Source: Bacillota bacterium (lineage in GTDB: Bacteria; Bacillota; Dehalobacteriia; UBA4068; UBA4997). From it: DNA of 47,108 bases. The stretch lies in contig JAETTP010000014.1 of NCBI GenBank assembly GCA_021769035.1, positions 1 through 47,108 of the forward strand, read 5' to 3'. Position numbers and translations under genes: made by a program. Below the pieces are notes generated by a model. That model did no database searches. It saw only the letters and a list, made by a program, of their open reading frames with translations, and had not been told where the DNA came from. Below, piece by piece: positions 1-15,326 of this stretch (position 1 is its first letter; each line of letters opens with the position of its first letter).

Positions 1-2
1 CT

Positions 3-92
3 TTCTACAACAATATTCGTCCTCATTCTGCTTTAGGTTGGATCTCGCCAAACGCTTTTGATAAAAAACTCCAAAATTCTTACATTGCTTAA
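3..92 (+). mobile_element. C-terminal end of an IS3-family transposase (OrfB), cut by window edge
   Basis: The third plus frame reads FYNNIRPHSALGWISPNAF and ends in TAA at 90-92. The YNxxRPHSALG motif is the hallmark of the C-terminal part of the DDE integrase domain of IS3-family OrfB. Only 29 residues are inside the window, so whether the transposase is intact upstream cannot be judged. It faces a broken recombinase on the opposite strand, about 80 bases away, so the insertion sequence may have truncated that gene. Confidence 0.85.
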
Positions 93-1575: not shown

Positions 1576-2181
1576 CTAGGAATTTTCCTTAACAACCTGA
1601 CGCAAAATAGGCAACATCTGTTGCAAGGCTGCCGCCCGGTGGCTAATCAGGTTTTTCTCTGCCATCTCCAACTCCGCCATCGTGCGCTCCCCCTCGGAGC
1701 CCAACAGAAACAGTGGATCGTAACCAAAACCCAGCTCTCCACGGCCGCTATAAGCAATACGCCCCTCGCAACGTCCCTCCGTGGCAAATTGCTGCCCGGC
1801 CGGCCCGGCCAACACCAAAGCGCAGATAAACCGCGCAGTGCGCTCTGCCGCTGGACAATCCTGCATAGCCGCCAAAAGCTTGCGGTTGTTGGCTTCATCG
1901 TCCTTTTGCTCGCCGGCATATCTGGCTGAATGAACCCCCGGCGCACCCTGCAAGTAATCCACCGCCAGGCCGCTATCGTCCGCCAACGTCCAAAGTCCGG
2001 TAGCAGTCGCCCCAGCCTGGGCTTTCAAAGCCGCATTGCCAACAAAATCCGGCGCGTCCTCCGGCGGCAGCTGCAAATCTGGAAAATCACGCAGGCTGAG
2101 CACCTGCCAACCGCTGCCCTGCAAAAGCTCCGCAATCTCCGCCACCTTATGCGCATTTCCACTGGCCACTAAAAGCTGCAT
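1576..2181 (-). CDS. rdgB: XTP/dITP diphosphatase (house-cleaning nucleotide pyrophosphatase)
   Basis: A 201-residue Ham1/RdgB-family enzyme that hydrolyses dITP, XTP and dHAPTP to monophosphates so that deaminated purines are not incorporated into DNA or RNA; cytosolic homodimer. Visible motifs: SGNAHKV near residues 7-13 (substrate triphosphate loop), LADDSGL with the catalytic Asp pair at 68-69, GVHSARYAG, GFGYDPLF for the base pocket, and a C-terminal KNLISHR. Length is normal for the family. The start has a GGGAGGAAGATTAA ribosome site. The leader contains a large hairpin followed by a U-tract (2199-2276), so expression may be attenuated. Confidence 0.95.
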   Translation of the reverse strand: MQLLVASGNAHKVAEIAELLQGSGWQVLSLRDFPDLQLPPEDAPDFVGNAALKAQAGATATGLWTLADDSGLAVDYLQGAPGVHSARYAGEQKDDEANNRKLLAAMQDCPAAERTARFICALVLAGPAGQQFATEGRCEGRIAYSGRGELGFGYDPLFLLGSEGERTMAELEMAEKNLISHRAAALQQMLPILRQVVKENS

Positions 2182-2198: not shown

Positions 2199-2276
2199 AA
2201 AAAAGGAAGTCCGCTGATAAAAAGACTAGCGGCCGCCAACCCGGCCTTGCCCTTTTATCCCCATGCGGACTTCTGT
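2199..2276 (-). promoter_or_regulatory. Structured leader hairpin with U-tract ahead of rdgB
   Basis: Read on the minus strand, three nested stems fold into one rod: GAAGTCCGC (2273-2265) with GCGGACTTC (2214-2206), GATAAAAG (2259-2252) with CTTTTTATC (2224-2216), and GGCCG with CGGCC at the tip. A CTTTTTTG tract follows and then the rdgB ribosome site. It has the form of an intrinsic terminator placed inside the rdgB leader. AT-rich -10-like sequence (ATAATATAAAC) lies right before it, so the RNA may begin with this hairpin. It matches no riboswitch class I know. Confidence 0.6.
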
Positions 2277-2351
2277 TTATATTATCTTCCGTCCACTGCT
2301 ATTTATACATTTTTGCAAAAAAAATTTTGGCTGAAAAAAATAACAAAGTCA

Positions 2352-2382
2352 TACATATCCGCCGCAGACTAAAGCCATAATA
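2352..2382 (+). promoter_or_regulatory. Possible sigma-G/sigma-F type promoter for the Asn/Gln-repeat gene
   Basis: TACATA at 2352-2357 and CATAATA at 2376-2382 are separated by 18 bases. Forespore sigma-G promoters have a -35 around GYATA and a -10 around CATAMTA, so the -10 fits fully and the -35 at four of five. It lies about 40 bases before the start codon. A sigma-A reading (TATAAG) fits less well. Confidence 0.4.
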
Positions 2383-2422
2383 TAAGTGCAGTTGCAATAA
2401 AAACAAAAAGGAGTGAAAAACT

Positions 2423-2569
2423 ATGGCTAACAATCGTACTAACAATCAGCAGTCCAACCAGCAGACTAACCGTCAGTCCAACCAACAGACCAATCGTCAG
2501 TCTAACCAACAGACTAACCGTCAGTCCAACCAGCAGACCAATCAGCAGTCCAACAACAACTGCCGCTAA
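2423..2569 (+). CDS. 48-residue Asn/Gln-rich tandem-repeat protein (gamma-SASP-like composition)
   Basis: ATG at 2423 follows AAAAAGGAG with eight bases between. After MANNRTNN comes an octapeptide repeated about four times, SNQQTNRQ, then a tail SNQQTNQQSNNNCR. Apart from the first and last few residues it consists only of S, T, N, Q and R, with no hydrophobic residue and no Asp or Glu. DNA repeats of 24 bases drift at third positions (AGTCC/AGTCT, ACT/ACC), so the peptide, not the DNA, is being conserved. Composition and size recall gamma-type small acid-soluble spore proteins, which carry N/Q/S-rich repeats, but I see no true SspE motif. The nearby sigma-G-like -10 fits a forespore role; both points are inference. 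A double hairpin follows the stop. Confidence 0.7.
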   Translation: MANNRTNNQQSNQQTNRQSNQQTNRQSNQQTNRQSNQQTNQQSNNNCR

Positions 2570-2607
2570 CAGTTATTGCAACAGCCTATAAAGCGATTTT
2601 AAACAAT

Positions 2608-2695
2608 CGCCGCCGTTTTCAAAGGGAACGGCGGCGCACTGTTGCTTCGCTTACAATCGCTGCCGTTTCCTAAAAAAAATGGTAGCGATTGTTTT
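2608..2695 (+). terminator. Tandem hairpins ending the repeat-protein gene
   Basis: The first hairpin pairs CGCCGCCGTT (2608-2617) with AACGGCGGCG (2627-2636) but lacks a T-tract. The second pairs CAATCGCTGCC (2654-2664) with GGTAGCGATTG (2681-2691) and runs into TTTTATG, so it is the likely terminator. It separates the plus-strand gene from the convergent gene that ends at 2713. Confidence 0.65.
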
Positions 2696-12287: not shown

Positions 12288-15200
12288 TTACTTACCCCAA
12301 AGACTCAGCAGCATTTGGGCCGCCTCCGCCCGCGTGGCCGCGGCCTGAGGGGACAGACGACCTTGCGCGTCGCCGCTGAGCACGCCCTGCTGCACCGCCC
12401 AAGCAAAAGCTGGCTGCGCCGAACGGGAAATTTCCCCAACGTCGCGGAAGCTGCTTAAACCGGGATAATCCATCAGCATAGGGCTGCCCGCCTGCCGCCA
12501 AAGGATCACCGCCAGCTGCTCCCGGCTGATGGCCTGATTAGGCGCAAAACGCCCGGCCTCCACGCCCTGCACCAGCTGCTGATCTGCCGCCCAGGCCACA
12601 GCCCCGGCAAACCAGTCCGTCGGCTGCACATCGGCAAAGGCCGCCGCAGTCGGTCCCTCTGGCCGACCGGCCCGGTTATACAAAACCTGCACCAACTGCG
12701 CGCGGCTGAGCGGCTCGCCAGGGGCAAAACGCGCCTCCTCTACGCCGTTCATCAATCCTTGGCCGTAAACATACTGCACAGCCGGGCCAAACCAGGCCTC
12801 CGCCGACACGTCGGCAAAGGGCAGAGCCGGCGCGCCCGCCTGATAAAGCGCGGCGTTGTAGGTAACCGCCGCCAGCTCCGGCCCGTTGGTGAAAGCCACG
12901 CCGCCGTCCGCCACTCGGTTAGTAGCCGGGTGAGAAGCGGCAAAGGTCAGGCCGTTTATCACCGTGCCGGAGCCAACCAACAGATAGCGCTCGTTCTCGT
13001 GGCCGGATTGCGGGCCCACGCCGCCGGGCACGGTTGGGTCGTTCCAGGTAACGTCCACGCCGTACCAAAAGCCGTCCTCCATCTGCACCAAGTTCCACAT
13101 ATGCGCCTCACCGCCGCCGTCCTTGGCATAGCGAGCATAGCCGTCGGCCAGCACGCAAGGTATGTTCAGCTTATCGCAAATCACCTTAAAAGCGCGGGAG
13201 TAGCCGTCGCAAACCGGGCCGTTGCTTCCGAAACGCCCCTCCAGGGCGCTCAGACACTCGTGCGGCTCATTGCCAATGCTGAACAAATCGGCGGAGGTGT
13301 TATATTCGTTATGTAGGGTCAGCCAGCTGTTTAGGGCCCGCAGCTGCTCCACCCGGCTGCCGGCCGAAGGCATGGCCTGCAAAATTTGGTTCACCGCCGC
13401 TTCGCGCCGTTGCAAGCCCTGGCTCACCGCACCCGGAGCCGTCCAAGCGGCGGAACGCAGACTGAAAGCTTGGTTATCCGCCAACGTGAAGAAGAAATAG
13501 GCCTCCTCCACCACCCGGTTGTCGTATTTTACAGAAACGGTTAAAATGCGCACCTTGCTTTTGCCGCTGAGCCAGAAGATTTCCGGGTGGTCGCGGTCAA
13601 AGGCCTGAAAGGTGGTGGTTATGTAGGTGCAGGCGTCCTGACGCTGCTTTTCGTAATCAGCGTTGCCGCTTTTCGTCAATCTGGTAACGAATATGCCGTT
13701 AAAAGTGCTGCTCAGCACCACGTCGCCCTCCTGCAAAGCCGGGTAATCAATGGCCCGATCGCCGGCCGTCACGTCCACCAGCAGATATTCGTCCTGCGTG
13801 AAAGGCCGCTCGTCACTCGTAAAGCCGCCCGCCAAAACCGGCTGCGGCGTGCTGGTGACAGTTTCCGCCTGATTCACAGTGAAACGCCGGCCGCTTATAT
13901 GTTTGGGGTTTTTGGCCCGCAAAGTGTAATATTCATCTTCAATCAAGTAATCCGCCAGCTCGTCGTTGTTGCTGCCGCTTTGCAGCGTTTGATACAGGGT
14001 TTTGGTATAGGCCGGCATATCCACCCGATCATACCAACGCACCTGCGGCTCCGGCTTCACAATCGCTTGCAGATAGGACTCGCCCAGGCCGGAAATGGTA
14101 AAATCCGGCGATTCACTGGTGACCAGCTCGTCTACACGCTCCACCGAGGGGCCGTCGTCATAATCATCACCGCCGCTATCGTCGCTGCCGGAAGGCTCCG
14201 GCGTTGGTTCTGGTATATCCAGCCAGTTGGCCGCCACAATATAGGTTCCGGCTGCCGCGTAAGCATATTCCGCACCGGCCGCCAGCTGCAAATCTGCCTG
14301 CACCTGCCAGCCGGCAAACTGCCGGCCTGCCGGCGGCGTGAAAGCGCACTCCGGCAGGGTGAAATTAAAGCCGGGAGCCGTCACAATATCAGACATAACG
14401 CCGCTGCCGCCGTTGGCGTTAAACTGCACCGTCACAATGACCTCCGGCGGTAAATCTTGCCAAACGGCGCTAATCGTAATTTCCCCGGTTGCAGGCGCAA
14501 TCTGGCTTAAATCCACCGTTTCGCCGGCGGCATAAGCCTGAGTGGAGCCGGCAACCTGCCACTGCAAAAACTCTTTTCCGACCGGCGGCGTGAATGAACA
14601 TTCCGGCAGTGTCAGCGGCGTCGTGTTATCCGTCACCACGTCCGGCATTGCCCCACTGCCACCGTTGGCGTCAAAATGCACCGTGAGGGCGTCCCGCCAA
14701 AGCGAGGTGACAACAACCTCTCTGGTCGAGGTTATCAGCTGGCTTAAAATCAGCGTGTCGCCCTCGTTGTGCAGTTGAGCGTCGCCATCAAGGTGCCAAC
14801 CCTGAAAGAGCTTTCCCGCCGGCGGCGTAAATGTGCAATTAGGAAAGGTGAAGCTATCCCCCACCGCCACCGTCTGCGAGGCAATAGCGCCGCTGCCGCC
14901 GTTGGCCTCAAAGGTTACGGTGTAGGGCAAATCACTGATGGTGATTTGCGGAACAACCAAGGACATAGCAACGCCGGAATCATCCACCAGGCCAGCCGCA
15001 GTTTCAATCGTTATCGATAGACTGCCGGCCTGAGCGGTTCCGCTGAAAGCCAGCTCCAGCGTATGGTTGGCGTTATCCACCGTCACCGCATTCAGTGTCA
15101 GGCCCGTTTCCGCCGTATTGATTGTATAATTGCTCACATTGGCGGCCGCAGTTTCATCAAAAACAGTTTCTTCATTAAAAGTTAGGGTCACAAACGGGTT

Positions 15201-15326
15201 CACCACGCCCACGCCCATTTCAGCAGGGCTTTGGCCAGCTATCTCCGGCAAGGCCCAGGCTGTTTGCGGCAACAGGCAGAAAGCTATAAATGCGGCCCAG
15301 AAGCCAAAAAACCGCTTAATCTTCAT
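12288..15326 (-). CDS. Secreted SLH-anchored transglutaminase-like surface protein
   Basis: 1012 residues. Signal peptide ending at AWA-LP (about 25); a Big/SbsA-like domain (30-130, NPFVTLTFNE...); three InlB_B repeats starting VTFEANGGSG, VHFDANGGSG and VQFNANGGSG with GWHL/QWQV/GWQV ends; a Ser/Asp/Gly linker at about 370-390; a transglutaminase-like core around 680-800 with catalytic Cys in PVCDGYSRAFK, His in EAHMWN and Asp in VDVTWND; and three C-terminal SLH domains (FADV..W, FADV..W, FRDV; SRAQ, SREQ, TRAE motifs) for binding pyruvylated cell-wall polymer. Likely a cell-surface protease or crosslinking enzyme; substrate unknown. Start has AAGGAGAGATAATT. It ends 30 bases before the chemoreceptor start. 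Confidence 0.9.
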   Translation of the reverse strand: MKIKRFFGFWAAFIAFCLLPQTAWALPEIAGQSPAEMGVGVVNPFVTLTFNEETVFDETAAANVSNYTINTAETGLTLNAVTVDNANHTLELAFSGTAQAGSLSITIETAAGLVDDSGVAMSLVVPQITISDLPYTVTFEANGGSGAIASQTVAVGDSFTFPNCTFTPPAGKLFQGWHLDGDAQLHNEGDTLILSQLITSTREVVVTSLWRDALTVHFDANGGSGAMPDVVTDNTTPLTLPECSFTPPVGKEFLQWQVAGSTQAYAAGETVDLSQIAPATGEITISAVWQDLPPEVIVTVQFNANGGSGVMSDIVTAPGFNFTLPECAFTPPAGRQFAGWQVQADLQLAAGAEYAYAAAGTYIVAANWLDIPEPTPEPSGSDDSGGDDYDDGPSVERVDELVTSESPDFTISGLGESYLQAIVKPEPQVRWYDRVDMPAYTKTLYQTLQSGSNNDELADYLIEDEYYTLRAKNPKHISGRRFTVNQAETVTSTPQPVLAGGFTSDERPFTQDEYLLVDVTAGDRAIDYPALQEGDVVLSSTFNGIFVTRLTKSGNADYEKQRQDACTYITTTFQAFDRDHPEIFWLSGKSKVRILTVSVKYDNRVVEEAYFFFTLADNQAFSLRSAAWTAPGAVSQGLQRREAAVNQILQAMPSAGSRVEQLRALNSWLTLHNEYNTSADLFSIGNEPHECLSALEGRFGSNGPVCDGYSRAFKVICDKLNIPCVLADGYARYAKDGGGEAHMWNLVQMEDGFWYGVDVTWNDPTVPGGVGPQSGHENERYLLVGSGTVINGLTFAASHPATNRVADGGVAFTNGPELAAVTYNAALYQAGAPALPFADVSAEAWFGPAVQYVYGQGLMNGVEEARFAPGEPLSRAQLVQVLYNRAGRPEGPTAAAFADVQPTDWFAGAVAWAADQQLVQGVEAGRFAPNQAISREQLAVILWRQAGSPMLMDYPGLSSFRDVGEISRSAQPAFAWAVQQGVLSGDAQGRLSPQAAATRAEAAQMLLSLWGK

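Follow-up and report, generated by a model that had tools for sequence, protein, structure and literature searches.

The gamma-SASP has been reported from bacilli only, with none in any of the clostridia surveyed, and the majority of minor SASPs are restricted to bacilli as well (PMC3533761); a role of the gamma-SASP as a reserve is hypothesised (PMC8452069). The Asn-rich repeats of another spore protein, GerG, form gels (PMC5241399), and CsfG of B. subtilis is a small RNA under forespore sigma factors (as cited in PMC9147052). The locus that we compare with these systems lies in a window of 47,108 nucleotides (the whole stretch of DNA analysed), which forms a single contig in the 2.2-Mb genome of an uncultured relative of Peptococcus and whose edge (1..92, + strand) carries what looks by eye like the tail of a reading frame for an IS3-type integrase. 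Encoded in the genome are SigA, SigF with SpoIIAB, SigE with SpoIIGA, SigG and SigK, together with SpoVAC/AEB-type proteins and one alpha/beta SASP gene adjoining GPR. An endospore gene set (sigF, sigE, sigG, sigK, spoVA, ssp, and gpr), known from genes alone, is present, and the preliminary description's question whether the organism has sigG, sigF, and spo genes is answered in the affirmative.

The reading frame at 2423..2569 (+) encodes an Asn/Gln octapeptide-repeat protein of 48 residues, MANNRTNNQQSNQQTNRQSNQQTNRQSNQQTNRQSNQQTNQQSNNNCR, which is recognized as a gene from its open reading frame, its conservation in the genus and a codon comparison. An N-terminal MANNRTNNQQ leads into the octapeptides, of which four had been described as SNQQTNRQ; three units are exact, but the fourth reads SNQQTNQQ and is followed by the terminal SNNNCR. 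The peptide comprises 15 Asn, 15 Gln, five Ser, five Thr, five Arg, and one Cys, and it lacks acidic residues as well as Val, Ile, Leu, Phe, Tyr, and Trp; Glu and Asp are absent from all eight versions in the genus, and the charge is +3.5 to +4.5. Neither Pfam nor NCBIfam profile libraries contain a match to it.

The gene is present in eight of the nine genomes of the genus, which supplies the homologues in relatives that the preliminary description had called for; the one without it, G003, has a completeness of 81% and misses the adjoining GIY-YIG gene too. A good ribosome site precedes the ORF, and this site, the start and the stop are kept in the eight genomes, where the product has 44, 48, or 55 residues, always with an M-x-NNR N-terminus and in seven of eight cases with an NNNCR C-terminus. 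In close pairs, the synonymous to non-synonymous changes number 3:0 (G000/G005), 1:0 (G004/G008), and, apart from one 4-codon gap, 8:0 (G000/G004), whereas between subgroups of the genus dN is ~0.17 to 0.26 and dS is ~0.8 or higher, often saturated. Synonymous sites are not as constrained as non-synonymous ones, and the repeat units differ in their codons, as the preliminary description had observed; its expectation of protein-level selection is borne out by the synonymous-only change in the close pairs, which indicates that the peptide gene is under purifying selection at the protein level.

Upstream of the ORF, the −35 element TACATA (2352..2357, +; core ACATA at 2353..2357) is separated by 18 bases from the −10 element CATAATA (2376..2382, +), and the start codon lies 40 bases after the latter. 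The arrangement ACATA-N18-CATAATA is unchanged across the eight gene-bearing genomes, the −35 core being identical in each, and it recurs in a sister genus (G009), where the peptide ends in NCR. As a regulon marker, the literal pattern CATAN{17,19}CATAATA was rejected: among its 12 genome sites, only that of the peptide lies outside other coding sequences ahead of a gene. Since the literal pattern fails to define a regulon, a forespore promoter matrix was built instead from 30 SASP genes of the order, with no peptide-gene site included, so that the matrix was learned from other genes and circular reasoning was avoided. These SASP promoters mostly read [GA][ACGT]ATA, 17 or 18 bases, and then CATAATA, CATACTA, CACAATA, AATACTA or similar; spoVA gene starts, examined for a sigma-G site, gave no clear one and were left out of the training. 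A few of the 30 training sites (e.g., L048 and L058) are possibly misassigned, and a second matrix from 23 chosen SASP sites gave the same result.

On the SASP-trained matrix the peptide promoter scores 15.0, whereas the best of 129 control gene starts from the loci under study reaches 12.2. In the whole window, three sites on the two strands score at least 13, with 0.4 expected at 14.3 or more: the peptide promoter, the promoter of a divergent RNA, and a site at 14213 within coding sequence. We take the last to be a chance match, as it falls within a gene for a 1012-aa protein encoded on the opposite strand; by eye, the product of this gene (12288..15326, −) has repeated segments resembling an InlB-like beta-grasp and C-terminal repeats of S-layer type. 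The sigma-G-like promoter (TACATA-18-CATAATA) proposed in the preliminary description gains support from this matrix, which was derived from SASP genes of the order only, and by its promoter type, which it has in common with SASP genes of its lineage, the peptide gene would belong to the sigma-G regulon. Sigma-F and sigma-G promoters resemble one another (PMC3789822), so that "forespore" is a firmer assignment than "sigma-G". Counting against the reading that we prefer below, the single SASP gene of the genus uses a −10 variant unlike that of the peptide, its promoter being [AG]G[CG]ATA-N18-AATACTA in all nine genomes. We note that this alpha/beta SASP gene (L017, L062, L063, and L065-L070) has a 5′ leader of 65-161 nt from the −10 element to the ribosome site, a distance of ~17 nt in most other genera; the leader starts with a conserved ATGCTTTTGA segment that could fold into a GCTTTTG/CAAAAGC hairpin.

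Outside the genus, searches with the protein and with profiles returned low-complexity look-alikes, such as TNKQ runs in G033, and one useful lead in G021, which led to a search by position. The positional marker was the convergent gene downstream of the peptide, encoding a GIY-YIG protein (PF20815; 2713..3300, −) and found in 29 of the 35 genomes of the order. Small ORFs stand beside this gene in seven other genera (G009, G010, G022, G026, G027, G030, and G034) and one gene away from it in an eighth (G020 and G021). These nine counterparts are basic, 36 to 72 residues long and rich in N/Q/S/T/K, with VILFYW at most 8% and Cys in every one; none of the nine matched a Pfam family, and for the eight that were also compared with NCBIfam nothing credible emerged. 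Their promoters all exceed every control start (Mann–Whitney p = 3e-7), so that, with those of the genus, 17 of 17 such ORFs outscore the 129 controls. When the loci were scanned with the promoter as sole criterion, mostly these ORFs were recovered and, in addition, a true SASP, Tlp (PF19824), in G032, which is an unplanned positive control. This Tlp-type gene (L116:2852-3091, +) adjoins hpt, in a genome without matches to PF00269 or GPR. Several genera lack such an ORF at the GIY-YIG locus, among them G033, which also gave no match to SASP, SpoVA, and GPR families. We infer that the counterparts and the peptide form one rapidly evolving family that keeps its position, promoter and composition, a homology that alignment alone cannot prove.

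A second promoter of sigma-G type, GTATA-N17-GATAATA (2280..2308, −; −35 at 2308..2304, −10 at 2286..2280), lies 45 bp from that of the peptide and points away from it, scoring 14.3-17.6 in all eight genomes that carry the peptide gene. Four bases past its −10 element begins a candidate forespore small RNA (2199..2275, −), delineated by alignment and fold tests as a 77-nt hairpin with a terminal U-run, which occurs with its own promoter in the same eight genomes at lengths of 77-91 nt. The fold is far more stable than those of shuffled sequences (z = −4.7). Pairing holds in 97% of the cells at its 25 pairs, compared with 36-54% in slid controls, and at four pairs both sides have changed in the genus alignment; the core GGGCAAGG(C/U)CGG is invariant save for the single C/U position. 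The flanking gene downstream encodes an rdgB-type XTP/dITP diphosphatase (1576..2181, −); in G002, however, the frame behind the hairpin does not start like rdgB, which rules out that the hairpin is simply an rdgB leader. An Rfam search of the hairpin stretch gave no match, and a covariance model run on the loci of the other genera found nothing convincing. Neither this RNA nor the order-wide counterparts figured in the preliminary description.

What else might the peptide gene be? Its repetitive, low-complexity sequence could suggest that the ORF is spurious, or that the element acts as RNA and not as protein, but this is hardly credible given close pairs with synonymous-only change, repeat units that differ in their codons, and a ribosome site, start and stop conserved in eight genomes. 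Small low-complexity, Cys-containing proteins are common in spore coats, and CATAATATA in the window also suits a sigma-K −10 element, so a coat or exosporium protein made in the mother cell under sigma-E or sigma-K deserves mention; it is improbable, since G001, G002, G006, and G007 have lost the TA that a sigma-K −10 requires, whereas all eight genomes retain the sigma-G form.

Equally improbable, in our judgement, is a joint action of the peptide and the divergent hairpin RNA, for instance as a forespore RNA–protein particle or as regulator and target. The peptide is basic, and the two sigma-G-type promoters are 45 bp apart in every one of the eight genomes, but proximity by itself is weak evidence, and the search of the loci with counterparts in other genera did not find the RNA, so that the peptide family does not need it. 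Unlikely, by analogy with the gel-forming repeats of GerG, is a self-associating spore protein, whose Asn/Gln repeats and near-terminal Cys would build a gel or a disulfide-linked network by comparable physics; the variable copy number of the repeats agrees with this, as do the near-C-terminal Cys in seven of eight genus members and the Cys in all nine counterparts, whereas the member without Cys (G007), the short chain, and its charge of +3.5 to +4.5 speak against it.

The reading that we prefer, with a probability of roughly 65%, is a lineage-specific, fast-evolving small spore protein, forespore-made, sigma-G-controlled, disordered, and SASP-like in role. It is supported by the genus-wide conservation and synonymous-only change in close pairs, by the sporulation sigma factors and the GPR, SpoVA, and SASP genes of the genome, by the SASP-trained matrix and the same-position counterparts of like promoter and composition in eight genera, and by the recovery of Tlp in the promoter-only scan. 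It is weakened by the lack of a GPR-type site for breakdown in germination, by the likeness of sigma-F and sigma-G promoters, and by a counterpart homology that is drawn from position, promoter and composition, not from alignment. Sigma-G RNA polymerase would transcribe the gene in the engulfed forespore, from the same kind of promoter as the SASP genes of the order; the product, a basic and nearly all-polar Asn/Gln repeat chain of 44-55 residues, is expected to be disordered and would accumulate in the spore core. There, in the role hypothesised for gamma-SASP, it could serve as a soluble filler and as an amide-rich store from which outgrowth would draw nitrogen and amino acids, and it could perhaps bind nucleic acid weakly through its spaced Arg/Lys. 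Evolution is fast while position, promoter and composition stay fixed, which suggests that composition, not exact sequence, is selected.

We offer more tentatively, as a possibility, that the gamma-SASP niche is filled, in a clostridial lineage with no known gamma-SASP, by a family of disordered forespore proteins that spans the order and is selected for composition, and that in this genus an undescribed small RNA under sigma-G control joins the peptide to make a two-part spore module of peptide and RNA. The reserve protein of gamma type that bacilli store has been reported missing in clostridial lineages, and a short peptide of fixed position, sigma-G control and conserved composition suggests that clostridial reserve-type proteins exist and change too fast for homology searches. 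Such fast-changing proteins should be traceable by promoter and position, and for forespore small RNAs outside bacilli the divergent hairpin adds a concrete candidate.

How closely, then, does the locus resemble the known systems? The candidate RNA resembles CsfG in being small and, to judge from its promoter, under forespore sigma control. GerG of C. difficile is likewise a spore protein with an Asn-rich repeat region of variable copy number (PMC5241399), but it is much larger and species-specific, has other repeats (GMPNNMSNNMNSNM), and controls Csp levels; no homology is claimed. The minor SASPs of bacilli (SspG to SspP, and Tlp) are, like the peptide, tiny, hydrophilic and narrowly distributed, and they are under sigma-G, as the peptide probably is, although the peptide matches none of their families and the Tlp of G032 is unrelated to it in sequence. 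The gamma-type SASP, SspE, is also small, repetitive and Asn/Gln-rich, with sigma-G forespore expression (presumed for the peptide) and a possible reserve role. The proposal of a gamma-SASP-like spore protein in the preliminary description stands for composition, size and presumed compartment, but not for the family. Gamma-SASP membership was judged by a match to the PF04259 or NCBIfam SASP_gamma profile, and the peptide has none, with the reservation that low complexity may weaken such scores; across the genomes of the order no protein reaches the PF04259 cut-off, whereas that of B. subtilis does. Further unlike SspE, the peptide has shorter repeat units, a Cys near the C-terminus and no acidic residue. 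Without Glu or Asp there is no GPR-type cleavage site, a Glu-containing one having been sought in all eight genus peptides, so that another peptidase would be needed for its breakdown. In sum, as far as sequence can tell, the peptide would act like a gamma or minor SASP without being a member of the gamma-SASP family, and it probably represents a type of small spore protein not described before.
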